Source: Geovibrio thiophilus
GTDB lineage: Bacteria > Chrysiogenota > Deferribacteres > Deferribacterales > Geovibrionaceae
Length of the DNA: 64,000 nt
Direction: 5' to 3'
Assembly (NCBI RefSeq): GCF_004087915.1
Contig: NZ_CP035108.1
Location: forward strand, 186,001 to 250,000
Positions 5,560-49,635 of the stretch are shown here, one piece after another; position 1 is the first letter of the stretch, and each line of letters starts with the position of its first letter. A program made the position numbers and the translations under genes. A model generated the notes under the pieces. That model saw only the letters and a program-made list of their open reading frames with translations, was not told where the DNA came from and ran no database searches.

Positions 5560-6926
5560 TGGCTGTTTTCAGAAAAAGAAAGTCCTTCGACTGCCCCAGA
5601 GAGCAGCTTTTCGACTGGCACGGGCGCTATGGCGCAATCGGCAGACTTGTACCCCCGTGGGAGGAGGTGCATGTTCTGGAGCGAATGGGCGGAATAGCCG
5701 ATGGTTCAACCGTTAAAATGAAAGTTAAAGCGGGACCGGTCAGCACAGAGTGGCATGCGCTTCATAAGAATTACAATTATCCCGAAGAATTTACGGATGT
5801 GATGGAGAAGGGTCCCTTCAAGGAGTGGGAGCACCGCCATGTCTTTTTTGAATGCGGCGGGGGCAGCGCCCTTGAGGACTGCATAACCTATAAGCTGCCC
5901 TTCTCTCCATTGTCAGATATTATAGCGGGCAGATACGTTACGGATAAGCTGGAGCGTATGTTCTCCTACCGCCACAGGGTGACGGAGGGGGACATTAACT
6001 TCATTAATAAATACAAGCCGCGCAGGCTGAATATAGTCGTCTCCGGTGCCGGAGGTCAGGTTGGGCGGTACCTTGTGCCTTTCCTCACAACGCAGGGGCA
6101 CAGTGTGAAAAGACTCGTGCGCCGCAGGAGCGATTCCGAGTTTGAGTTTTCATGGAACCCCGATACCTGCGAGATAGACAACTGCTTCGGCGGCTGCGAC
6201 GCAGTGATACACCTCGCCGGAGAGCCCATAGGCGACGGGCGCTGGTCAAAATCAAAAAAGAAGAAAATCACCGGCAGCCGTGTGGAGGGCACAAGGCTGA
6301 TAGCTGAATATATATCAAAAATGGACAGTCCGCCCCCCGTGCTGATATGCGCATCCGCCATAGGCTATTACGGCGACTGCGGCACAGAGATTCTGGATGA
6401 GCACTCCCCCGCGGGGGAAGGCTTCATCGCCGATGTGTGCAGGCAGTGGGAGGAAGCGGCAAAGCCCGCCGCTGACCGCGGAGTAAGGGTGGTTTTAATT
6501 CGCATAGGCGTTGCTCTCACCCCTTCCGGCGGCGCATTGCAGAGGTTTCTGCCGTTTTTCAGAATGGGTCTGGGCTGTTATCCGGGCAGAGGGGATCAGG
6601 TGCTGAGTTGGGTTGCCATGGACGATGTCGTGCGGGGCATAGCTCACTGCATACACAGCGAAGAGACTGAGGGTGCTGTAAACCTCACAGCGCCTGAGCA
6701 GGTGACAATGAAAGAGTTCGCCCGCACTCTCGGCAAGGTGTTGGGGAGAAAGGCGCGGTTCAGGATTCCCGCATGGCTGATAAAGCTTATCTACGGGCAG
6801 ATGGGCAGGGAAGTCCTGCTCTCCGGAGCAAGGGTTGAGCCGAAGAAAATGATGGATACGGGATATGAATTCGGCTACCCTAAGCTTGAGAGCGCCTTAA
6901 GGCACCTCCTCGGAAGGATATTATGA
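5559..6926 (+). CDS. SRPBCC domain fused to a TIGR01777-type SDR epimerase-like protein
   Basis: The first ~145 residues look like an SRPBCC (START-like) lipid or ligand-binding domain (CPREQLFDWHGRYGAIGRLV). From about residue 150 follows an NAD(P)-binding Rossmann fold (VVSGAGGQVGRYL, then VIHLAGEPI) of the extended SDR class with a C-terminal DUF1731-like tail. The TIGR01777/YfcH family is widespread, but its reaction is unknown. Bacterial fusions with an SRPBCC domain exist, suggesting a hydrophobic substrate presented to the dehydrogenase. It overlaps its upstream Hpt and downstream membrane-protein neighbours, so the four-gene run 5.27-8.90 kb is probably one operon. Confidence 0.85.
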   Translation: MAVFRKRKSFDCPREQLFDWHGRYGAIGRLVPPWEEVHVLERMGGIADGSTVKMKVKAGPVSTEWHALHKNYNYPEEFTDVMEKGPFKEWEHRHVFFECGGGSALEDCITYKLPFSPLSDIIAGRYVTDKLERMFSYRHRVTEGDINFINKYKPRRLNIVVSGAGGQVGRYLVPFLTTQGHSVKRLVRRRSDSEFEFSWNPDTCEIDNCFGGCDAVIHLAGEPIGDGRWSKSKKKKITGSRVEGTRLIAEYISKMDSPPPVLICASAIGYYGDCGTEILDEHSPAGEGFIADVCRQWEEAAKPAADRGVRVVLIRIGVALTPSGGALQRFLPFFRMGLGCYPGRGDQVLSWVAMDDVVRGIAHCIHSEETEGAVNLTAPEQVTMKEFARTLGKVLGRKARFRIPAWLIKLIYGQMGREVLLSGARVEPKKMMDTGYEFGYPKLESALRHLLGRIL

Positions 6927-8035
6927 CACATAACATAAAGCTTCTCTTCTCGGTAATGATGACTGTCGCCCTGCTTTTCGGATATATGTTTCACTTTTTT
7001 CCGGAATACCACTTTGAGAGGCTCCATATATTTCTGTTTAATCTCTGCACAGGGGGAACAATAGTCCTCTATTTTACTGAGGGTCTGGGAGCGCCCAGCG
7101 TGAGGGTGAAGGCGTTTTTCGTGCTTTCGTTCATATACGCCGTGCTCTCCTCAATGGAGCTTTACGCCCCTGCCATAGCGGTTTCTCTGTGCATGATCCC
7201 CATTGTGGAATACATAAGAGTCAAGAAATTTTCGCTGTTCCCCAAAGATTTTTTTACAACCAAGACACCCACTGCTGTGAAATTTCATCAGGCGTCTCTT
7301 TTATGCCTGTCCATGGGTCTTCTTATATCCGCGTTCGCCATAGTGAATGAGGAATACTGCCGTGTGCTCGATTTTGAGAAGCTCACGCTGAATACATTCT
7401 TCCTCGGGTTTTCCTTTCCTTTGTCACTGATTACTTTCAGTCTGATATTCACGCTGATGCACAAGGGGCGCACTCCGTTCAAAAGGTTTCTCAAGCTCAT
7501 GAGCTTCTGGGTGATAAACATGGGGGTTATCATATTCTTCGTGTTCATACTCATGGAATCCGTCGTGCTTGAGCTTGTCGTCTCCTCCGTGCTGTTTATA
7601 GCCGTCTGCAATGTGCTGATCATGTATGTCACCCTCGGGATGAAAGAGCAGCAGAAGTCGTTCCTCACCTCGGGGATATTCTTCCTGATGGTTACAGCGG
7701 TAACGGGCATAGTCTATATTCTGCTTTACACCTTCAGCCTCAACAGTCCCGAGAACAAGGCGCTGGTGCTGAACTACCACCGCATAGCTGCTCTTTACGG
7801 CTGGAACCTCAGCGGGCTTGCGGTAATATGCAGGTTCAATGACTTTCCGATCAGGCTTCACTCCGGAAAAACGATACTGCTTCACTGGGTGATAGTTATG
7901 CTGCTGGCGCCGCTGGGGTATTATTCCGTTCTCGCCGGAATCGCCGCCGTGATAGGCTATGCCTTCTTTCTTCGCAGTCTGTTTTTCAGCACCGGAACGG
8001 AGAAAATACCCGCTTTTGAAAGGAATGAAGCTTGA
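6923..8035 (+). CDS. Polytopic membrane protein of unknown function
   Basis: The gene starts within the stop of the SDR gene (ATGA overlap). The 370-residue product is hydrophobic almost throughout, with roughly ten predicted membrane spans and short charged loops. A charged stretch at about residues 90-110 (EYIRVKKFSLFPKDFF) and a loop near residues 285-300 are the longest soluble parts. I recognise no family motif. The overlaps on both sides tie it to the SRPBCC-SDR enzyme and the EamA transporter, which suggests a membrane-linked metabolite or lipid task for the cluster, but no reaction can be named. Confidence 0.8.
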   Translation: MTHNIKLLFSVMMTVALLFGYMFHFFPEYHFERLHIFLFNLCTGGTIVLYFTEGLGAPSVRVKAFFVLSFIYAVLSSMELYAPAIAVSLCMIPIVEYIRVKKFSLFPKDFFTTKTPTAVKFHQASLLCLSMGLLISAFAIVNEEYCRVLDFEKLTLNTFFLGFSFPLSLITFSLIFTLMHKGRTPFKRFLKLMSFWVINMGVIIFFVFILMESVVLELVVSSVLFIAVCNVLIMYVTLGMKEQQKSFLTSGIFFLMVTAVTGIVYILLYTFSLNSPENKALVLNYHRIAALYGWNLSGLAVICRFNDFPIRLHSGKTILLHWVIVMLLAPLGYYSVLAGIAAVIGYAFFLRSLFFSTGTEKIPAFERNEA

Positions 8036-8904
8036 GCGGCACAATAAAATCTCCCCTTGCCGCTCTGACGGCAGGGGCTTTCATAATCAGCTTTTCGTCA
8101 ATCTTTGCCCGCCTTTCCACGGAAACTCCGGTGGTAAACGGCTTTTACCGGATGATGTTCGGCGCTGTGTTCCTTACCGCTCTGGCTTTTCTCAGCGGGA
8201 GCCGCTTCAGGCTCGGGCGTTCAGCGCTTTATTCGGCTTTCGCCGGTGTGCTTCTCGGAACCGATATGGTGTTCTGGCATACGGGCATAGATTATGTCGG
8301 TCCCGGGCTTGCAACTCTGCTGGCGAATTTTCAGGTGTTTTTTCTGGCGGTGTATGATGTAACTGTTGAGAAGAAGCCCATATCAAGGCGGCTGTTTTTT
8401 GCCATGCTTCTTGCCGTGTCGGGGCTTTATCTTCTTGTAAGCCCGGGGTGGAGCATGGAAGGCGGCAGCTTCCGCACGGGTGTGGCGGCAAGCCTTATAG
8501 CCGGAGTGTTCTATACCGGATTCACCATCTTCATCAAAAAATCCTCTCAGACGGTGAACCCGCTGGACAAGACAGCATCAATAGCCTCCGCCTGTGTTGC
8601 GAGTGCTGTTTTCCTCTGTATGGCGGTTTTTGCCGCGGGCGAGAACCTTGTCGTGGAGAGTCCTAAGGATCTGGGCATACTGATTGTTTACGGCGTGATC
8701 TGTCAGGGTGTGGGCTGGGTGCTTATCACCGGAGCAATAAGGGCGGTGCGCCTCAGCGTTGTCGGGCTTGTACTCCTGCTTCAGCCTACTCTTTCGTGGG
8801 TGTGGGAAGTGCTGATATTCTCAAAACCGGTGATCTTTACAGATTTGGCGGGAGCCGCCCTCGCTATGGCAGCCATATATCTCGGGAGTGTTTCAAAAAA
8901 TTAG
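8032..8904 (+). CDS. EamA/DMT-superfamily transporter
   Basis: Translation most likely starts at TTG 8032, whose bases overlap the preceding TGA stop (TTGA) with AAAGGAA just upstream. The 290-residue protein has about ten membrane helices in two EamA repeats: FSSIFARLSTETPVVNGFYRMMFGA near the N-terminus, and a second copy from about residue 150 ending in the typical LLLQPTLSWVWEVLIF signature. DMT carriers export amino acids, nucleobases or other small metabolites by proton exchange. The substrate is not predictable. It closes the four-gene overlapping run that starts with the Hpt protein. Confidence 0.9.
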   Translation: MSGTIKSPLAALTAGAFIISFSSIFARLSTETPVVNGFYRMMFGAVFLTALAFLSGSRFRLGRSALYSAFAGVLLGTDMVFWHTGIDYVGPGLATLLANFQVFFLAVYDVTVEKKPISRRLFFAMLLAVSGLYLLVSPGWSMEGGSFRTGVAASLIAGVFYTGFTIFIKKSSQTVNPLDKTASIASACVASAVFLCMAVFAAGENLVVESPKDLGILIVYGVICQGVGWVLITGAIRAVRLSVVGLVLLLQPTLSWVWEVLIFSKPVIFTDLAGAALAMAAIYLGSVSKN

Positions 8905-8981
8905 CAGCTGCGGTTATTTTTCCCTACAGCTCGCGAAAATAGTTATTTAATGCTAAACTTATAGAATAAGAGAGCCGCTTC

Positions 8982-10361
8982 GTGAAAAGAAATTTTTTTA
9001 TTCTCAATTTTATCACAGCTTTTATTCTCGTCTCCGCCGCCAGTGCTTTCATACTTCATAAAGCGGACATATCAGTCCGCCGGATTATCAATGAACAGAG
9101 AAAGACTGTCCGCGCTCAGATAGGGGATAAGCTGAAAAGCTTCGATCTTTTTATGCTTGTTATGGCAGACAGAATGGAGGAGCGTGCCGGACAAGCCCTG
9201 CGTGAGATAGATGCCGTTCTGGGCGAATCCGCCGCAAAGGGCATTCCCGCTGATCCTGAAACTCTGCGCAGGCTGGCGGATGAAAAGGGTGTGGGGGAGA
9301 TTTATCTCATCAACTCAAACGGAGTGGTTTTCAGCACCTCAAACCGCAGAGAGCAGGGGGTCAGCCTGACAAAAGCCGGAAAGAGTCTGGCTGATTTCAT
9401 AAACTCCCTTTACGGAACCGGAACATTCTCGCACGGAAGACTCAGTGTCGGAATGGTCACGGGCAGACCGGCTATGTTTTCCTACTACAGTCCGAAGGGC
9501 AGCTCATACATTACGGAAACCGCCGTCTATCTTGAAGACTTTATATCCGAAAGCCACGGCAGAAATGTTTACGAGTATTACTTCAGAGACTATTTCAGTG
9601 AACTGGTAAATTCCTGTGCTTATACCCGTAATATAGATGTCTTCACCAAATTCAGCGTTTCCGGCTACTCTCTTTTCAATTTCCGGCGGGAGTTTCCCCT
9701 TGAGCCCTCATCCGCTGACCGCCTGAAAAACGGAGAAATGATAGAGAAAAGGGATGGCGGAAGGCTTTATGAATATTCGGCTTTCAGGCTGAAAAATTCC
9801 GAAGGAGACTTTGCCGAGACATACTATCTGGAGGTTGTTTATGATTTCTCCGGTGTCGGTGATTCGGTAATGAGGTCCGCGTATGCGGCTATTTTTTCGG
9901 TTTTTCTCAGCGGCGTTCTCCTGTTTTTCATGCTGAACTGTCTGACCTCAAAGAAAAAGTGCGCTGAGAGCGGAAACGCTGATTCCGGTTTGAGCCCGAT
10001 TCCGGGTTCCGAGCCGCAGACAGCAGACGGCGGGTCCGGACTTTTCCAGCCGCAGGCGGGTCATAAAGGCTACAGGATACTTCTGGCGGACGATTCGGAG
10101 TACAACAGGTTCGTAACAGAGTCCTATATAGAGGGCTCCGGCTGCGTACTAGACTATGCCGACAGCGGCTTTGCGGCTCTGGAGCTTTTTTCCAAAAACA
10201 GATACGACATGGTGCTTACGGACATTCAGATGCCGAAGATGAACGGGTACGAGCTTACGAAAGAGATACGCGCCTTGGAGGAGAGCACGGGAATGAAGCG
10301 CACTCCGGTTATCGCCATAACCGCCTATGACCTTGAGCGCGAGAGGAGAGCACGGGAATGA
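8982..10361 (+). CDS. Membrane-anchored receiver protein, N-terminal part of a gene split by a 65-bp duplication
   Basis: The protein has an N-terminal membrane helix, a periplasmic sensor region of about 270 residues resembling Cache-type domains, and a second helix near residues 300-320. A linker then leads to a CheY-like receiver (ILLADDSEYNR, phospho-acceptor Asp414 in VLTDIQMPKMNG). No histidine-kinase core lies between membrane and receiver, which is unusual. An exact tandem duplication of 65 bp (10278-10342, repeated from 10343) shifts the frame and ends the ORF after AYDLERERRARE, before receiver beta5. Removing one unit restores a 601-residue sensor-REC-Hpt protein. The stop overlaps the ATG of the downstream fragment (ATGA). 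Whether this is a real allele, a phase switch or an assembly error is open. Confidence 0.85.
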   Translation: MKRNFFILNFITAFILVSAASAFILHKADISVRRIINEQRKTVRAQIGDKLKSFDLFMLVMADRMEERAGQALREIDAVLGESAAKGIPADPETLRRLADEKGVGEIYLINSNGVVFSTSNRREQGVSLTKAGKSLADFINSLYGTGTFSHGRLSVGMVTGRPAMFSYYSPKGSSYITETAVYLEDFISESHGRNVYEYYFRDYFSELVNSCAYTRNIDVFTKFSVSGYSLFNFRREFPLEPSSADRLKNGEMIEKRDGGRLYEYSAFRLKNSEGDFAETYYLEVVYDFSGVGDSVMRSAYAAIFSVFLSGVLLFFMLNCLTSKKKCAESGNADSGLSPIPGSEPQTADGGSGLFQPQAGHKGYRILLADDSEYNRFVTESYIEGSGCVLDYADSGFAALELFSKNRYDMVLTDIQMPKMNGYELTKEIRALEESTGMKRTPVIAITAYDLERERRARE

Positions 10362-29761: not shown

Positions 29762-29782
29762 GTGGATGATCAGGGGACGGGG

Positions 29783-29860
29783 CTGCGCCGTGCGTAGCGA
29801 AGGCAGGATTCTCCCTGCAGCGAGCGTGCATCCGAAATTTTCATGGATGATAAATTTCCG
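29783..29860 (+). repeat. Single diverged copy of the structured repeat found in triplicate at 49.3 kb
   Basis: This 78-bp segment keeps the unpaired parts of the 49.3-kb repeat: CTGCGCCGTGCG, then AGCGAAG, GAGCGTG and the loop CATGGATG. Both hairpin stems differ in sequence but still pair. Stem 1 is GCAGG/CCTGC here and GCCGCA/TGCGGC there. Stem 2 is GAAATTT/AAATTTC here and a GCTGAATT/AATTCAGC pair there. It ends 7 bp before the tRNA-Leu promoter. Confidence 0.8.
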
Positions 29861-29920: not shown

Positions 29921-30005
29921 GCCCGAATGGCGGAATAGGTAGACGCAAGGGACTTAAAATCCCTCGGAATTTAATTCTGTGCCGGTTCGATTCCGGCTTC
30001 GGGCA
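29921..30005 (+). tRNA. tRNA-Leu (TAA), integration site of the genomic island
   Basis: An 85-nt class II tRNA. The acceptor GCCCGAA pairs with TTCGGGC, the anticodon loop CTTAAAA contains TAA, a long variable arm (TCGGAATTTAATTCTGT) follows, and the T-arm has GGTTCGATTCC. The discriminator is A; CCA is not encoded. Its 3' part is duplicated exactly at 34192-34250, marking it as the attachment site of the element. Confidence 0.97.
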
Positions 30006-30008
30006 CTT
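29950..30008 (+). repeat. attL, 59-bp direct repeat within tRNA-Leu
   Basis: Bases 29950-30008 are identical to 34192-34250. The repeat begins in the anticodon stem and ends three bases beyond the tRNA 3' end, typical for tyrosine-integrase elements that rebuild the tRNA on insertion. Confidence 0.95.
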
Positions 30009-30026
30009 ATATATATCAATAACTTA

Positions 30027-30063
30027 CAAAGGGCAGTCCTTGTTATGGGGCTGCCCTTCTTTG
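30027..30063. terminator. Terminator hairpin just inside the left end of the element
   Basis: AAGGGCAG(T)CC pairs with GG(G)CTGCCCTT around a 7-nt loop, followed by CTTTGTTTC. It can end tRNA-Leu transcripts on the plus strand and the element's own operon on the minus strand. Confidence 0.7.
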
Positions 30064-30089
30064 TTTCTGTGTTGTAAAAATGTTGTATT

Positions 30090-30317
30090 TTATTTTGAAG
30101 AAAAAACTTCTGATAGCCTGTCGGGAAGGTCAGGATATTTCTTAAAGACTCGCCACCATCTTTTGAGATCAGCATGAAAGAGCTTAAAGTTTTCATCTCC
30201 CAAACGCCATGAGCCCATAATAATATCAATTTCATTATTATCATACTCTTCAAATCTAATTTCTTTCTTAGGGCTAAGCTCTAGTGTCAAATGTCTAATT
30301 ACTTCTCTTTCTCTCAT
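30090..30317 (-). CDS. Small hypothetical protein of the element (75 aa)
   Basis: The gene starts within the stop of its upstream neighbour (4-bp overlap), which supports its being real. The product is charged and soluble, with LTLELSPKKEIRFEEYDNN and a Trp-rich segment ADLKRWWRVFKKYPDLPDRL. I recognise no family. As the last gene of the rep operon it may serve copy control, packaging or host takeover, but there is no evidence for any of these. Confidence 0.65.
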   Translation of the reverse strand: MREREVIRHLTLELSPKKEIRFEEYDNNEIDIIMGSWRLGDENFKLFHADLKRWWRVFKKYPDLPDRLSEVFSSK

Positions 30318-30556
30318 AAGTCATCACCAAAGACTGATATTACTGATGAAGCAGTCGGCAGTTCATCAATAATACTTTTAATTGTTTTATTTTCTGATAA
30401 TCCCGGATGTTCAAATTGAAATTCAAGGTCAGAAAAATCAAAAGTTCCAAGCAATTCATTTGCCCTGAAAATATCAACTGTTTCGTTTTCATAGAGAACA
30501 AATTTGTAATCAATGTCTTTTTCTGTTTTTAAAACACATATGCTATTTACTTTCAT
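30314..30556 (-). CDS. Small hypothetical protein of the element (80 aa)
   Basis: An acidic 80-residue protein (MKVNSICVLKTEKDIDYKF), predicted mostly beta with a helical C-terminal part. Its start overlaps the end of the Rep gene by 14 bp and its stop overlaps the next gene by 4 bp. Tight coupling in rep-X-Y order is common in filamentous-phage-like and rolling-circle elements, where such proteins bind single-stranded DNA or regulate Rep. No motif proves this here. Confidence 0.65.
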   Translation of the reverse strand: MKVNSICVLKTEKDIDYKFVLYENETVDIFRANELLGTFDFSDLEFQFEHPGLSENKTIKSIIDELPTASSVISVFGDDL

Positions 30557-31772
30557 GGCTCATTTCTCCTTGTTCTATGACAGAATACTTTCCACTACTC
30601 CATTCAAAACAATCATCATCTACAATCAAAGTTAGATTAAGCGGGCTTTTATCATCTTTGCGGTAAACTTCATAGTCTGCCCTGCCAGATTCAATCATTT
30701 TTGTTAATTCATACAGAGTGATATTGCGTTCCTTCAATTCTTTATAAAAGCGGCTAAAAACGAAGAAAGGAGCGAGAGTTTTTGAATAGGTTATCATTCT
30801 AAGATTATTAAATTTTATGAGCCTTTCTTCGGTGCGCTCACGCTCGTTACCTGAACCATCTGATTTTATGCCCGCACCTTTCATTACATACTTGCTGATG
30901 TACCTCATGACTTGCATATAATAATCATTTTGATATTTTGTCTCATCATGTATGAATTTGATATAAAGGAAATCTCCAGAAGAAATGTTGAAGTTTTCAA
31001 GAGCATAGCAATCAGGCTTTCTATTATCGAATGGTTTGAAAGGAAATTGCTTTAAATAGGGCTCATAGTATTTTTTAGGAATAACTACTTCTGTCCGCCC
31101 TATTTCAGAAAAATGAGCTTTTTTTCTTTCAATGACCTCAAAAAAATTAAGAAAAGCCAACTTTTCATCTGGTACATAATAAGCACAATGAGAATGAAGC
31201 GTATAATCTTTCTGAAACTCAAGTGTATAGATATACTGAAAGAAGTCAGATGAAATATAATACCAATCTTGAGAAATTCTTAAAGCCTTCTTGCGTGTCT
31301 CGGTTGGCTCCCTGAATAAATTATCGTCCCTTAATGCGCGGTGAAAATTTCTAAGCAATGCAGATTGTTTTTTTACGATAGAAACATCTTCTTGATTAAA
31401 ACGAGAAGATTTCAATGTGGCAGTAACAAAAATCATTGCTAGGTTCTTTTCCTGAGCAAGGCTATTAAATGAGTCAATAAGATTTAAGTATTGAGCATAT
31501 CTTCTGAACCTCAGATGCTCAACAAGCTCGTATAGAGATATAAAAGTTTCATTAATTTGGATGCCATGCGTTAATAAATACGAAAGATTTTTTTTATCTT
31601 TGCTGTCATAAATCAAGTTCAGTAATTTTAATGAAACTCCTACTCCCATCATTGCTACCGCACTTGGTGTATAACTAAACAAGGGGCGGTTTTTTTCGCT
31701 TGCGCTCATGCCTTCGCTTACGCTTCGGCAGTCATCACCGCAAGGCGCACCGCTAGCAAAAGAAGAGGTCAT
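30543..31772 (-). CDS. HUH-type rolling-circle replication initiator (Rep)
   Basis: The 409-residue protein has the motifs of HUH endonucleases. A strand MIFVTATLKSS matches motif 1, LHSHCAYYVP gives the His-x-His metal site (motif 2), and MRYISKYVMKGAG gives the YxxKYxxK catalytic tyrosine/lysine region (motif 3). Such enzymes nick the origin and start rolling-circle replication of plasmids, inoviruses and phage satellites. The first ~25 residues are encoded by an unusually GC-rich block holding an 18-bp imperfect direct repeat (31695-31730). A start at the internal Met22 is possible. It overlaps the excisionase-like gene upstream by 4 bp and the small gene downstream. Confidence 0.8.
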   Translation of the reverse strand: MTSSFASGAPCGDDCRSVSEGMSASEKNRPLFSYTPSAVAMMGVGVSLKLLNLIYDSKDKKNLSYLLTHGIQINETFISLYELVEHLRFRRYAQYLNLIDSFNSLAQEKNLAMIFVTATLKSSRFNQEDVSIVKKQSALLRNFHRALRDDNLFREPTETRKKALRISQDWYYISSDFFQYIYTLEFQKDYTLHSHCAYYVPDEKLAFLNFFEVIERKKAHFSEIGRTEVVIPKKYYEPYLKQFPFKPFDNRKPDCYALENFNISSGDFLYIKFIHDETKYQNDYYMQVMRYISKYVMKGAGIKSDGSGNERERTEERLIKFNNLRMITYSKTLAPFFVFSRFYKELKERNITLYELTKMIESGRADYEVYRKDDKSPLNLTLIVDDDCFEWSSGKYSVIEQGEMSHESK

Positions 31773-31975
31773 ATTATACCTCTTGCTTTAACTGTATTTG
31801 ATGTGATGAGATTCTCTAGAGTGTCTCTTGAAATAAAGACACGCCGAGAGATTTTGACGTGTTCAATCTTCCGCTTATAAATCCAGTCATAAAGAGTATG
31901 TTCGGAAAAACCAGTATAGGCGGCGGCTTCCTGAATAGAAAAAAGTCGTTTCTCAATGCCTGTTCCAACTGACAT
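31769..31975 (-). CDS. Excisionase-like helix-turn-helix protein (MerR/AlpA type)
   Basis: The 68-residue protein is a single winged-helix module with the hallmark FSIQEAAAYTGFSEHTLYDW and the wing VKISRRVFISRDTLENL. Proteins of this size act as excisionases (Xis/AlpA), directing integrase toward excision, or as small repressors. It stands at the head of the rep operon, just after the largest non-coding gap of the element, so it probably controls excision and replication together. An 8-bp inverted repeat (CTCCGTAT/ATACGGAG, 31982-32004) lies right before its start. Confidence 0.88.
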   Translation of the reverse strand: MSVGTGIEKRLFSIQEAAAYTGFSEHTLYDWIYKRKIEHVKISRRVFISRDTLENLITSNTVKARGII

Positions 31976-32065
31976 AATGCCCTCCGTATGCGTTTGATAC
32001 GGAGAACTTAGGCTATTTCAGTTGGTCAAAGCAAAGCTACATGACCAAGAAAATTAAAGGTCGCT

Positions 32066-32108
32066 AAATAAAATTACGCCAATTTTATAAATTGTCATAA
32101 TTTTATTT
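32066..32108. other. Nested AT-rich cruciform, candidate replication origin of the element
   Basis: AAATAAAATTA (32066-32076) and TAATTTTATTT (32098-32108) are perfect 11-bp arms. Inside them CAATTT (32080-32085) and AAATTG (32089-32094) form a second 6-bp stem with a 3-nt loop. The whole lies in the 204-bp gap of the element, near the rep operon. Extrudable hairpins are the usual nick sites of HUH initiators. A transcription-control role is the alternative. Confidence 0.5.
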
Positions 32109-32136
32109 ATAAGCTCCATGGAAAGGCGAACAGATA

Positions 32137-32179
32137 CCTTTCTTTCCTCCTGTTTTTTGTGAAGGAGGGAAAGAAAGGG
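32137..32179 (-). terminator. Large hairpin after the integrase operon
   Basis: CCTTTCTTTCCTCC (32137-32150) pairs with GGAGGGAAAGAAAGGG (32164-32179) with one bulged base and a T-rich loop. It begins directly after the stop of the 32180-32971 gene, so it may end that transcript, although no clear T-tract follows. A single-strand origin is the other possibility. Confidence 0.5.
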
Positions 32180-32971
32180 TTAAGGTTTGATTACTTTCCT
32201 GACAGTATCCAAAGAGCGCTTTAAGTCAAGATTTTTAATAACAATTCTTGCAACAGCAGAATCATTATCAGGTTCAAAAATAGTTTTTCGTACACTTTCA
32301 GCTTCTTGTCTCCAGCGTTCATGTTCTTCATTTACAGGAGAGCCGTCACGTTGACCACCGTTTGACTTACATTGTCTTTGTGTTTTTACATATTGGAATA
32401 TCGTATCTTCATAATTAAGTTCTTTTGCCCCAAATGCCCCTGACAGGATTTCCATTTTATAGAAGGCATCAAGCATTGCAATTATGCTCAGTTCGACATT
32501 AGAAGATATATTACGTTCAATTTGTGTAAGATGAATCAATGCCTCATATGCGAATTGTACGTTTAAGGGGTGTTCAGGGTGTATGTATTCTTCTCCGTAT
32601 ATGATTTCTTGGTTCTCGGCAGCCATTAATTCATCAATAGAAACTCCTTCTGTTCTTTTATAATAAATATTTTCAAGGTCAGCATTTGAAGTTCTATCAA
32701 ATAAATCTATCTCTTCTTCACCGAGAACTAAACTAATCTTACGTTTGAAGTAATTAAGGGCTTCTGTAAGATTATGAAAATTATGAGTTCCAAGTTTGAA
32801 AAGTTCAAAATTATCTATCTCAAGTTCTTCCGCCTCGTTACTTCGTCTGAGAACCATTCTATCAAAATATTCAGGAGGGCGGGTGCAGAATCTTCTATGG
32901 TGCCAGTATCGTAATGATCCAATAATTTTAATCCACCATATGAAACAGAAGTATTTAATTCTCTTCAACAC
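32180..32971 (-). CDS. Hypothetical protein of the element (263 aa)
   Basis: The gene starts 16 bp inside the end of the integrase gene and is transcribed with it. The product has a hydrophobic, aromatic N-terminus (CFIWWIKIIGSL) that could be a membrane anchor. A long acidic, helical soluble part follows with LGEEEIDLFDRTSNADLENIYY and a region around QFAYEALIHLTQIERNISSNVEL. I recognise no family. Genes directly behind integrases are often cargo for immunity or maintenance, but the sequence gives no direct evidence for such a role. Confidence 0.72.
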   Translation of the reverse strand: MLKRIKYFCFIWWIKIIGSLRYWHHRRFCTRPPEYFDRMVLRRSNEAEELEIDNFELFKLGTHNFHNLTEALNYFKRKISLVLGEEEIDLFDRTSNADLENIYYKRTEGVSIDELMAAENQEIIYGEEYIHPEHPLNVQFAYEALIHLTQIERNISSNVELSIIAMLDAFYKMEILSGAFGAKELNYEDTIFQYVKTQRQCKSNGGQRDGSPVNEEHERWRQEAESVRKTIFEPDNDSAVARIVIKNLDLKRSLDTVRKVIKP

Positions 32972-34034
32972 TTAAATAGCTCCCCAGACGCTCTATGGTA
33001 CGCTTAGATTCTTTCAGACCTACATGGGTATAGCGTTCAATCATCTTGGCGGTTTTATGCCCTGAAATCTGCTGAATTTCGATGATACTTGCTCCTGATG
33101 CCGCAAGTCTGGTTATCATTGTATGTCTTAGTTCGTGAAATACGATGTTCAGTTGCGCACGTTCGACAGCCTTTTCAAAACCACCGCTTAAATCCTTTAA
33201 TCTTTGTCCGTCAGTGGGGCGGGAGAAAATATATTCATACTTGCCAGTAAGGGAATGAAGTTCGATTAAAACGGGTTTTAAAGAGTTTATGATGGGTATT
33301 TCTCTAGGTTGGTTATTCTTGGTTTTGTAAATTCTGATGCTGTTTTCTTCAAAACTGATGTTGCTCCATTTAAGGTTAATAACCTCGCTGTATCTCATGC
33401 CAGTATAAAGAGCCACCATAACGAAATGATAAAGAATAGGACTTCTGGAATTGCGACATTCTGCAAGGAGTTTTTTTTCATCTGCACTGCTCAAGACATT
33501 TCTTTCTTTTGGCTGTTCCTGAAGCATTGGAAGTTTTCTTACTGGATTACGGTCTATCAGCTCCAATGATTCAGCATAGTTGAAAGCGAATTTAACTACT
33601 TGAAGGTATCTATTGACCGTGGCAGGCGAGCGCTTCCCGTTATTGATAAAGTTTCTATAGTTTTCAATATCGGTTCTGCTGATGTTATTCATGGATTTGT
33701 CAAAATCTTTGAAATCTCTTGCCGACTCAAAGCGTCCACGGTGAAAATCTGTAAGATGGTTTTTGTAATAATCCTTGTAGTAAGTATTAAAAAAGGTTTT
33801 CCATAGAATAGTTTTTGTGATTCCAAAAAAACGATTTTCACGTACATCTGTTTTACGTTTTGCCAGAGCTTCACGAGCATACCCGATGCTATCGCCGATT
33901 TTCTCGGTTTTCCGTTTTCCATCAATAGAATATTGTATATAGTAATTCTTGCTTAGTTTCTCGCCGCATGATTTGCAGTTTTTTGACTGTGTACTGTTGA
34001 AGGTTCGACATTCGCATCTGTTGAATATTGCCAT
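32955..34034 (-). CDS. int: Tyrosine-recombinase integrase with N-terminal zinc ribbon
   Basis: The ATG at 34034 (GAGG upstream) is chosen over an upstream open frame reaching 34151. The 359-residue protein begins with a CxC...CxxC zinc-ribbon-like segment (CECRTFNSTQ, then KNCKSCGEKL). A core-binding domain and catalytic domain follow. Catalytic residues are visible: Arg in YTGMRYSEVI, His-x-x-Arg in HELRHTMI, the second His in SGHKTAKM and the nucleophile Tyr in IERYTHVG. It should recombine the 59-bp tRNA-Leu att sites. It lies next to attR and reads into the element. Confidence 0.93.
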   Translation of the reverse strand: MAIFNRCECRTFNSTQSKNCKSCGEKLSKNYYIQYSIDGKRKTEKIGDSIGYAREALAKRKTDVRENRFFGITKTILWKTFFNTYYKDYYKNHLTDFHRGRFESARDFKDFDKSMNNISRTDIENYRNFINNGKRSPATVNRYLQVVKFAFNYAESLELIDRNPVRKLPMLQEQPKERNVLSSADEKKLLAECRNSRSPILYHFVMVALYTGMRYSEVINLKWSNISFEENSIRIYKTKNNQPREIPIINSLKPVLIELHSLTGKYEYIFSRPTDGQRLKDLSGGFEKAVERAQLNIVFHELRHTMITRLAASGASIIEIQQISGHKTAKMIERYTHVGLKESKRTIERLGSYLSVEEN

Positions 34035-34191
34035 TGAAGCCTCTGTGATGTGTGGTGTTGTAAAAATGTTGTAAAATAATAGAAACACCACCGTGAATTC
34101 TCCGTAATTCAACGATACCACAAAAGATAAAAAATGCAATATAACATGCACTTAAATAAGTCATCCTGAATTGTCGTGAATGCTTAAAAAA

Positions 34192-34250
34192 GGACTTAAA
34201 ATCCCTCGGAATTTAATTCTGTGCCGGTTCGATTCCGGCTTCGGGCACTT
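34192..34250 (+). repeat. attR, 59-bp copy of the tRNA-Leu 3' part
   Basis: It is identical to 29950-30008 and not preceded by the 5' half of a tRNA. It marks the right end of the integrated element, 158 bp upstream of the integrase start. Confidence 0.95.
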
Positions 34251-34288: not shown

Positions 34289-34708
34289 TTAGTCTTGATT
34301 TCTTTTATTAACATCATTGTCATTAAAGCGAACCCATGTGACATTGCCTTGAATGTGTTTTAAGTTGAGTGATTTTCTAAGGCTGTCTCTTAAAGAGTTG
34401 ATCAAGGGGTCAAGCTCAAAAATACCGCCTTCGGCTATATCATATGCAAGCTTTTTAGCTAACTCAATTTGTTCTTCATTTCCAAATAATTGAATTGCTC
34501 CAATGAGACTTTCAAGTTTCTTATTACGTTCTTCAGTTGATTTTCTGTGTGCGACTTCATTGTTTAATATTCTATAAGCATCAATTAAATGGCTTGTAAT
34601 TATTTTTCTTTTATCATCCTGAACAGCTCTTTTAGATGACCACCAACCGTTGAATATCCAGCCTGCTATAACTATCAGGCTGCTGATTATGAGTTCGATT
34701 TCTTTCAT
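34289..34708 (-). CDS. Hypothetical membrane-anchored protein outside attR, AT-rich
   Basis: The 139-residue protein has one N-terminal membrane segment (LIISSLIVIAGWIFNGWW) followed by a helical, charged cytoplasmic part (HLIDAYRILNNEVAHRKSTEE). I recognise no family; similar short anchor-plus-helix proteins are common in mobile regions. Its AT-rich composition matches the element rather than the chromosome, yet it lies beyond attR. It may be left from an earlier insertion at the same tRNA. Confidence 0.7.
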   Translation of the reverse strand: MKEIELIISSLIVIAGWIFNGWWSSKRAVQDDKRKIITSHLIDAYRILNNEVAHRKSTEERNKKLESLIGAIQLFGNEEQIELAKKLAYDIAEGGIFELDPLINSLRDSLRKSLNLKHIQGNVTWVRFNDNDVNKRNQD

Positions 34709-34825
34709 GCGATATTATAAATTGAGTTTGTGATTTTCTCCAACAGAATAAACATAAATTGTTAAATTGATATTTACATTGAATTACGTATAATTATGCG
34801 TAATATTGTCTGTAAGAGGTGCAGC

Positions 34826-35110
34826 ATGTATGGTGTAAAGTATGAGCTTAATGAAATGATGAGTGCCAGCAGCTTTTCAAGAAATATGAATAAAGTCGCA
34901 GATCTCCTCAGAGATAAAAACCGCGTTGTGGTGCTGAGAAACAATAATCCCGAGATGATTGTACTCCCTGTACAGGAATACGAACTTATGAAGTCTGTCA
35001 TGGATTTGGCAGAACATGTTGAAATAGCTCAGCTTATTGAGGAAAGAAAAAATTCGGAAAAGGTTCCTTTGGACGAAGCACTGAAAAGACTGGGCTTAGA
35101 AGATGAGTAG
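34826..35110 (+). CDS. Phd/YefM-type antitoxin
   Basis: The ATG at 34826 has GAGG six bases upstream and is preferred to an earlier in-frame start at 34796. The 94-residue protein has the Phd/YefM fold: ASSFSRNMNKVADLLRDKNRVVVLRNNNPEMIVLPVQEYEL, in pieces the N-terminal DNA-binding strand-helix unit, then an acidic C-terminal tail that should wrap the toxin (VPLDEALKRLGLEDE). It overlaps the toxin gene by 8 bp. The complex probably represses its own promoter. Confidence 0.9.
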   Translation: MYGVKYELNEMMSASSFSRNMNKVADLLRDKNRVVVLRNNNPEMIVLPVQEYELMKSVMDLAEHVEIAQLIEERKNSEKVPLDEALKRLGLEDE

Positions 35111-35420
35111 CACCTACAATGTTTCTCTTTCTGAAAAAGCTGTTGAGGATATAGGGAGGCTTGACGGCAGCATAAAGAAACTGGTGGCTAAACAGCTTCA
35201 GGCTCTTCGGAGCAATCCTTTCAAAGGCGAATCACTGGGAAGCAAGGCAGGAATTGATCTGAACGGCTGTTATAAGCTCTATGTCCATAAAAAGCAGGTC
35301 AGAATCGTCTATCAGGTAATAGATGATGAGCTTCTGGTGTTTGTTGTCGGCATCGGGAAGAGAGAAAATTTAGAAGTATATAAAGAAATATTCAAAAGAC
35401 TGCAAAGCGGACAGAGTTAG
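35103..35420 (+). CDS. RelE/ParE-superfamily toxin
   Basis: The 105-residue basic protein shows the RelE/ParE fold: YNVSLSEKAVEDIGRLD, LRSNPFKGESLGSKAG, and the strand pair YKLYVHKKQVRIVYQVIDDELLVFVVGIGKREN, quoted in part. Family members are mRNA interferases or gyrase inhibitors; Arg and Lys in the VRIVY strand fit an RNase. It is translated with its Phd-type antitoxin. The pair sits next to an integrative element, where such modules often stabilise DNA. Confidence 0.9.
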   Translation: MSSTYNVSLSEKAVEDIGRLDGSIKKLVAKQLQALRSNPFKGESLGSKAGIDLNGCYKLYVHKKQVRIVYQVIDDELLVFVVGIGKRENLEVYKEIFKRLQSGQS

Positions 35421-49268: not shown

Positions 49269-49635
49269 ACAGTTCCAAGTATGGAACTGCGCCGTGCGAA
49301 GCGAAGCCGCATTCACTGCGGCGTGAGCGTGTATGCTGAATTTCCATGGATGGAAAATTCAGCATTATCAATACATGGCGTTTGCGGAAACGCAACTACA
49401 GTTCCAAGTATGGAACTGCGCCGTGCGAAGCGAAGCCGCATTCACTGCGGCGTGAGCGTGTATGCTGAATTTCCATGGATGGAAAATTCAGCATTATCAA
49501 TACATGGCGTTTGCGGAAACGCAACTACAGTTCCAAGTATGGAACTGCGCCGTGCGAAGCGAAGCCGCATTCACTGCGGCGTGAGCGTGTATGCTGAATT
49601 TCCATGGATGGAAAATTCAGCATTATCAATAAAAG
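49269..49635 (+). repeat. Three tandem 129-bp units of a structured repeat between proW and proX
   Basis: Units start at 49269, 49398 and 49527; the third stops after about 109 bp, just before the proX ribosome-binding site. Each unit contains four hairpins in order: AGTTCCA/TGGAACT, GCCGCA/TGCGGC, a long stem GCTGAATT.../...AATTCAGC capped around CATGGATG, and GCGTTT/AAACGC (the last missing from unit 3). The units are virtually identical, so the array expanded recently. In the operon's RNA it would form an array of about eleven hairpins before proX, as REP-like elements do when they stabilise upstream mRNA. Confidence 0.93.

Follow-up and report, generated by a model that had tools for sequence, protein, structure and literature searches.

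A 4.2-kb integrative element with a probable HUH-type Rep at a tRNA-Leu gene of Geovibrio thiophilus, a candidate helper-dependent satellite

Phage-inducible chromosomal minimalist islands (PICMIs) of the Vibrionaceae include PICMI115, of about 6.1 kb, which PMC10803314 describes as the smallest satellite with a characterized activity. In the account given there, the gene order is int, an overlapping iolg, alpA, (up1), prim, and a defense slot; alpA alone suffices for excision, iolg is required, and prim drives replication, for which Southern blots fit a rolling-circle mode. Among inoviruses, Pf4 carries an integrase (Int), the excisionase XisF4, which is 30% similar to an AlpA, and the initiator PA0727 beside a tRNA-Gly gene (PMC7379572), and the inovirus satellite RS1 and the plasmid pDolos are named in PMC11389934. 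Here, we analyze a 4,242-bp unit at a tRNA-Leu(UAA) gene of Geovibrio thiophilus (Deferribacterota), located in a 64,000-nucleotide stretch of contig NZ_CP035108.1 (hereafter the window, whose coordinates are used for its features). On balance, we consider it somewhat probable that this unit is a small helper-dependent integrative element working like a minimalist phage satellite.

As the original prediction held, the unit is bounded by a perfect 59-nt direct repeat at the tRNA gene, with the attL core at 29950 to 30008 and the attR core at 34192 to 34250 (both plus strand), 4,242 bp apart. The repeat comprises the final 57 nt of the tRNA-Leu(UAA) gene (29921 to 30006, plus strand; ARAGORN; Rfam tRNA, 60.6 bits) and 2 nt beyond it; the attachment gene is restored by the element. 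Apart from the gene itself and its fragment at attR, a query with the tRNA against the whole 2,997,552-bp genome returned a single weak match of 37 nt, and no third att copy. Like integrative elements in general, the unit combines an integrase with a filled attachment site between direct repeats; its GC content is 35.9%, compared with 47.0% and 49.6% on the two sides. An intrinsic terminator with a 12-bp stem (30029 to 30058, plus strand) lies immediately within the left end, and an Rfam scan reported the tRNA alone above threshold. Not part of the original prediction is a perfect 19-nt repeat inside both ends, GTGTTGTAAAAATGTTGTA (30069 to 30087 on the left and 34055 to 34073 on the right, plus strand), which occurs in two copies versus none in 100 shuffles and looks like a candidate arm site for the integrase.

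Six genes, all on the minus strand and most of them overlapping, occupy the unit. The integrase (32955 to 34034; 359 amino acids [aa]) is a phage-type tyrosine recombinase (PF00589, E = 7e-30; phrog_1, 6e-67). It had been described as a zinc-ribbon integrase, and its four N-terminal cysteines (C7, C9, C20, and C23) are indeed invariant across the four integrases compared, although the Pfam zinc-ribbon match itself is not significant (E = 0.73). An orphan gene of 263 aa (32180 to 32971) shares 17 nt with the end of int and is followed by a 68-aa AlpA-like excisionase/activator (31769 to 31975; HTH_17 [PF12728], 4.4e-12; phrog_66, 1e-9; TIGR01764 excise), a divergent HUH-type Rep of 409 aa (30543 to 31772), and two orphan genes of 80 aa (30314 to 30556) and 75 aa (30090 to 30317). 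The overlaps are 4 nt between alpA and rep, 14 nt between rep and the 80-aa gene, and 4 nt between the 80- and 75-aa genes. Profile scans bore out the claim that Int, AlpA, and Rep come without packaging or mobilization genes: among the six genes there were no packaging, capsid, coat, or Zot families (Pfam, PHROGs, and NCBIfam), no relaxase family at E ≤ 1 (Pfam and NCBIfam), no FtsK/SpoIIIE-type transfer gene (Pfam), and no DUF3987 (PF13148) or DUF5906 (PF19263) primase at E ≤ 1 (Pfam). The 263-, 80-, and 75-aa proteins matched no family significantly in Pfam, PHROGs, NCBIfam, or PADLOC. Two candidate assignments were set aside: a PADLOC match of AlpA to mad1, which reflects generic helix-turn-helix (HTH) similarity, and a match of the 75-aa protein to the defense gene Csx19 (E = 0.029), dismissed as chance.

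The element resembles the PICMIs, as PMC10803314 presents them, in size class, in gene number (six, as in PICMI115), in gene order, and in having no capsid-remodeling genes. It has the PF00589 integrase and the AlpA by which PICMIs are recognized, but instead of the DUF3987/DUF5906 primase it carries an HUH-type Rep, it sits at a tRNA gene rather than next to fis (related elements described below likewise use tRNA-type sites), and its host belongs to the Deferribacterota rather than the Vibrionaceae. Lacking both the primase and the fis site, it is not a PICMI; given the same gene order, with the Rep in the position of prim, it works like one in our view.

Other known systems share fewer of these features. 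The likeness to Pf-type inoviruses (an integrase, an AlpA-like excisionase that activates the initiator, the initiator, and a neighboring tRNA gene; PMC7379572) is one of gene content and setting. The element differs from them in carrying no coat, Zot, or secretion genes. RS1 and pDolos have replication genes without particle genes, and RS1 uses XerCD, whereas the window element itself encodes both a tyrosine integrase and an AlpA. The actinomycete integrative and conjugative element pSAM2 combines int, an excisionase, and a replication protein; the window element shares this trio, and Reps of its relatives show weak similarity to RepSA of pSAM2, but it has no gene for an FtsK-type translocase. 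Finally, an integrated element of Enterococcus (locus L064) has adjacent, codirectional genes for a PF23343-like Rep, an HTH protein, and a tyrosine integrase, and differs in its gene order, in a CI-like regulator, and in the absence of an AlpA match (to a narrow model). That locus (6371 to 9459) belongs to Enterococcus canintestini, and similar loci occur in several Enterococcus genomes.

Relatives of the element occur within its own family. Three sister elements of 6.3 to 7.7 kb in other genomes share Int (59 to 64% identity), AlpA, the gene order, and arm sites. Integrase homologs at E ≤ 1e-60 were present in 4 of 49 genomes, its own included, and AlpA homologs in 4 of the 12 family genomes, again counting its own, at the same four loci. 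In G004, which belongs to another genus of the family, a 7.7-kb element occupies a tRNA-Phe gene between perfect 44-bp repeats; in G009, perfect 58-bp repeats flank a 6.4-kb element that lies in tRNA-Leu(CAA). The G011 element, of about 6.3 kb, has a clear right core of the tRNA-Phe type and a decayed left core, and no tRNA gene was found in its stretch. Next to this complete element, in tandem with it at a tRNA-Phe-type core, stands another left end that carries an AIPR/AbiU-type gene and belongs to an additional element (locus L044, 14776 to 16863). All three sisters follow one order: Int, a toxin-antitoxin pair (in G004 and G011), a gene of about 300 aa, AlpA, HUH Rep, cargo, and the tRNA-type att site, with an extra 295-aa gene that in G011 separates the toxin-antitoxin pair from the ~300-aa gene. 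The window, G004, and G009 elements have arm-like TTGTAAA/TGTTGTA repeats at either end, and G011 has them in a diverged form; a hairpin similar to the left-end terminator of the window element follows the tRNA-type core in G004 and G011. Rep type and the cargo next to the tRNA differ between elements. Insertion at the tRNA, the gene set, the existence of a family, and the exchangeability of Rep and cargo are evident from the sequences. As a separate observation, tandem units of ~183 nt, each with a terminator-like hairpin, directly follow attR in G004 (L006, 10885 to 11312).

Taken together, the motifs, the sister elements, and a structural model make it probable that the 409-aa protein is an HUH rolling-circle initiator, as originally predicted. 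Against PF23343 (REP_ORF2-G2P) it scored 17.6 bits (E = 0.0047), below the curated cut-off of 27.8. In an alignment of 20 Reps, H193 and H195 of the HUH motif H193-S-H195 (codons at 31188 to 31196, minus strand) are invariant, the middle position being serine in the window Rep; in the YxxKY motif (Y291-I-S-K-Y295; codons at 30888 to 30902, minus strand), Y291 is invariant and K294 and Y295 are nearly so. The only relative found among 59 genomes, and by a profile search of 384 genomes, is the G004 Rep (53% identity), which matches PF23343 and RepSA at 1.8e-4 and phrog_3419 at 6e-4. The G004 protein connects this long, divergent type with the short, canonical HUH Reps of G009 and G011, which match PF23343 at 2e-23 and 7e-22 (82.8 and 78.1 bits) and phrog_3419 at 3e-27 and 5e-28, respectively. 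An hhalign comparison of the long and short types aligned a 24-residue stretch alone, pairing H-S-H with H-Y-H (E = 0.058). An AlphaFold model built from two sequences was useless (predicted local distance difference test [pLDDT], 39), while one from the 20-sequence alignment reached a mean pLDDT of 57, with much of the core at 80 to 88 and blocks at 81 to 88 over about residues 181 to 260. In a viral structure library the latter matched O36160 (4e-5) and the A* protein of phage G4 (7e-4); its top VIA-align hit was Rep of adeno-associated virus (Z score, 8.1; root mean square deviation, 4.2; 133 aligned residues), with unrelated PDB folds scoring near it, and a Foldseek search against the PDB gave nothing at E ≤ 0.001. 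Given that the canonical HUH Reps in the alignment bias the model toward that fold, it serves as support and not as proof. The call is based on the weak profile matches, the motifs, the 53%-identical sister, the canonical Reps in the same slot of two other sisters, and the model. Just downstream of the short Rep and after a GC-rich stretch, G009 (L043, about 7985 to 8100) and G011 (L044, about 9750 to 9840) have TTATAGTGATTAATAAGCAGAAA in common, a motif that is a candidate rolling-circle origin.

A wider search with the short Reps across genomes returned 23 loci, of which four beyond the sisters were read: the Enterococcus locus, a small contig (L051) on which another replication-like gene accompanies the Rep, an Actinobacteria contig (L054), and an inovirus-like locus (L053). 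The last bears on another explanation, which we regard as unlikely, namely that the element is a satellite of a filamentous phage, its Rep producing single-stranded circles for secretion by a helper inovirus, or else a Pf-like inovirus minus its coat genes. On L053, a Paceibacterota contig, a relative of the Rep (41% identity) stands beside a Zot-like gene and open reading frames that look coat-like by inspection. The sizes of the elements, 4.2 to 7.7 kb, fall within the inovirus range, and RS1 of CTXphi is a model of a satellite secreted by a helper inovirus. The trio of integrase, AlpA-like excisionase, and initiator beside a tRNA gene is also that of Pf prophages (PMC7379572). However, the element has no coat-like gene, and Zot (PF05707) was found in none of the four element-bearing genomes and marginally in 1 of the 12 family genomes. 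Matches to an integrase hidden Markov model outside the two sister loci came from 10 of the 29 loci scanned, all of them from Firmicutes, and the integrase pair found two distant matches only (29 to 31% identity) in viral contigs.

The unrecognized genes had been suggested as cargo, which seems to apply to only part of them. For the 80/75-aa pair, cargo is plausible from position. The 263-aa gene is more likely part of the core, since it occupies the slot taken by an unrelated ~300-aa gene in the sisters and by the excision-essential, int-overlapping iolg in PICMIs. In the three sisters, the ~300-aa proteins form one related group (20 to 35% identity to the G009 protein), with one marginal match outside the sisters in 384 genomes. 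A comparison gave no support for the 263-aa protein being a divergent version of this regulator (hhalign E = 0.49), and the protein was found in its own genome only among 59.

We examined the cargo of seven left-end slots: those of the window, G004, and G009, two in G011, and one each in the same-genus genomes G001 and G002. Strong PADLOC defense matches occurred in three of the seven, HamB in G004 (3e-57), PDC-S14 in G001 (1e-88), and AbiU in the second G011 slot (1e-42); the G002 slot has a control-protein-like HTH gene (5e-12), and PADLOC gave no strong match in G009 (a PAS/GGDEF protein), the first G011 slot (373 aa), or the window pair. Defense cargo is hence common but not universal. For the 80/75-aa pair, any role within the element is a guess from its position. 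A 233-aa gene next to HamB in G004 was considered as HamA; no HamA model supports this, and it is a partner by position only.

The regulation of excision might be linked to the leader of alpA. The 204-nt gap upstream of this gene folds strongly compared with shuffles (z = −8.5) and contains a hairpin with an 11-bp stem that buries the alpA Shine-Dalgarno sequence (31979 to 32007, minus strand). In all four elements the ribosome-binding site (RBS) of alpA is buried in this way, by stems of 11, 9, 11, and 7 contiguous pairs and with accessibilities of 0.005, 0.000, 0.001, and 0.201, where control starts have a median of 0.39. With the register set by hand, the three columns immediately internal to the GGAGG pairs vary on both sides. 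Among control starts, stems of at least 9 pairs occurred in 5 of 129 and of at least 7 in 21 of 129, and accessibilities of 0.05 or less in 15 of 167. Such controls, together with the value of 0.20 in G011, weigh against a strong hairpin signal. A second hairpin (31763 to 31784, minus strand) spans the alpA stop and the rep start, which overlap in ATGA (31769 to 31772), and buries the rep RBS; the rep start has an accessibility of 0.005, as would be expected if translation of rep depended on that of alpA. The alpA gene of E. coli K-12 has only a weak 6-pair stem. From these predicted structures we infer that alpA may be under hairpin control, and the literature listings searched contained nothing on an alpA leader hairpin or on satellites in Deferribacterota. 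Alternatively, the hairpin could be an AlpA operator or an origin structure instead of an RNA switch. An AT-rich 21-nt inverted repeat upstream of alpA (32065 to 32109, no strand assigned) is another candidate operator or replication-origin structure.

Next, we asked whether relatives preserve the tRNA-Leu site in an empty state. Related left ends were present in all three same-genus genomes (the window, G001, and G002). In G001, tRNA-Leu and the left end behind it together match over 227 nt at 88% identity, and the arm repeat is fully conserved; the 283-aa PDC-S14 gene comes next and then chromosome; no integrase at E ≤ 1e-60 and no second core were found there. In G002, the tRNA is followed by phage tail and other genes, 49 nt of left end (96% identity), three genes, and chromosome matching the window from 34678 onward; the insertion that separates tRNA and relic is read as a prophage. 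These relics led us to consider whether the terminator and arm site at the left end are native DNA, which we rejected because the DNA right of attR differs, a copy of the arm motif is found within the right end too, and the sisters have the same layout at other tRNA-type sites. The two relics imply that decay at this site is common, and with it comes the question of whether the window element is itself an immobile remnant, that is, an integrated rolling-circle plasmid or satellite that has lost excision and is kept for its cargo. Left ends that persist without Int, AlpA, and Rep in G001 and G002 fit such a history, yet in the window six genes are open, both 59-bp repeats are perfect, and the arm repeats are identical, and we consider a remnant quite improbable.

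The preferred reading, a helper-dependent element resembling a minimalist phage satellite, implies the following cycle. Int would insert the element at the 3′ end of tRNA-Leu, where, as read from the DNA, the tRNA is restored and the element supplies its own terminator. At rest, alpA would be off, partly through the leader hairpin over its RBS, whose presence is seen and whose effect is presumed. A helper signal would turn alpA on; AlpA, Int, and probably the 263-aa protein would then excise the element as a circle, which the HUH Rep, judging from its motifs and relatives, would nick for rolling-circle copying into multimers or single strands. Since the element makes neither a particle nor a conjugation pore, helper machinery is needed, and the copies would exit in it. 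The slot between rep and the tRNA would hold swappable, often antiphage, genes, here the 80/75-aa pair. Excision, rolling-circle copying, and helper transfer, all part of the original prediction, are what we infer from this anatomy and from the three related elements at tRNA-type sites; a clean empty site did not turn up in the relatives.

As the helper, we favor a phage over a conjugative element. A mobilizable integrative element whose Rep doubles as relaxase, with a co-resident conjugative system providing coupling protein and pore, would have precedent in the Rep_trans-related MOBT relaxases. Genes for the type IV secretion system coupling protein (PF02534) are present in three of the four element genomes, and the weak RepSA similarity of the sister Reps points the same way; on the other hand, no relaxase family matched the element at E ≤ 1, no oriT was noticed, although no search was aimed at one, and the Rep resembles phage and plasmid initiators. 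We hold this alternative to be rather unlikely. Terminase_6N was represented by one gene per genome in all six family genomes searched (at G000:C1:2630917-2631600 and as single hits in the five others), and may mark a conserved prophage or a locus resembling a gene transfer agent. With coupling proteins and terminases both present, the helper cannot be named from genome content. In G011 (C15:167160-183063) and G004 (C3:34884-46162), coupling-protein genes are found no more than about 10 to 11 kb from a tRNA-Leu match, and in G011 a 3′ tRNA fragment stands on the other side of the coupling-protein region, as if a conjugative element had used the same tRNA.

Several results weigh against the preferred reading. 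The coupling proteins just mentioned make a conjugative helper possible, and G001 and G002 offered left-end relics in place of a clean empty tRNA-Leu site. No relationship was detected between the 263-aa protein and its ~300-aa counterparts by position in the sisters. The Rep lies below the Pfam curated cut-off and has a serine as its U residue, and its better model leans to the HUH fold through what its alignment contains. Furthermore, neither the Rep nor the sisters' ~300-aa regulator had a relative in 2.9 million viral contigs, and thus no trace of packaged copies appeared, in scans that find mainly near relatives.

Other searches of sequence collections also came back empty. With tblastn, no relative of the Rep was found among phages (50,697 records) or plasmids (72,556 records), and neither the 263- nor the 80- or 75-aa protein had a match in phages or plasmids; the 263- and 80-aa proteins matched no viral contig. 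A search of genome contigs with the Rep gave nothing and did not recover even its known sister in G004, which that collection may lack.

Two further features lie outside the element. The DNA right of attR (34289 to 35420) holds a 139-aa orphan gene together with a pair of genes that looks toxin-antitoxin-like by inspection and is near-identical in G002. An intergenic repeat of ~80 nt is dispersed at 29775 to 29857, 49287 to 49359, 49416 to 49488, and 49545 to 49617, the last three at a spacing of 129 nt; it has many copies in G001 and G002 and is a candidate repetitive extragenic palindromic (REP)/bacterial interspersed mosaic element (BIME)-like family.

It is tempting to speculate, though we put this forward tentatively and with some doubt, that the four elements represent a family of minimalist satellites in Deferribacterota with a PICMI-like gene order and an HUH Rep in place of the primase. 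The Int and arm modules would be fixed, whereas the tRNA target, Rep, and defense cargo would be exchanged; alpA, with rep coupled to it, would be gated by a hairpin, and the 80/75-aa pair would be an undescribed antiphage module. The cargo slot is a defined place in which to seek new small defense genes. If mobile, the 4.2-kb element would be smaller than PICMI115 and would bear on how few genes a hitchhiker can manage with. If Deferribacterota do have a rolling-circle variant, this would suggest that the layout of int, int partner, alpA, replication gene, and defense arose or traveled across phyla, with replication genes being interchangeable.

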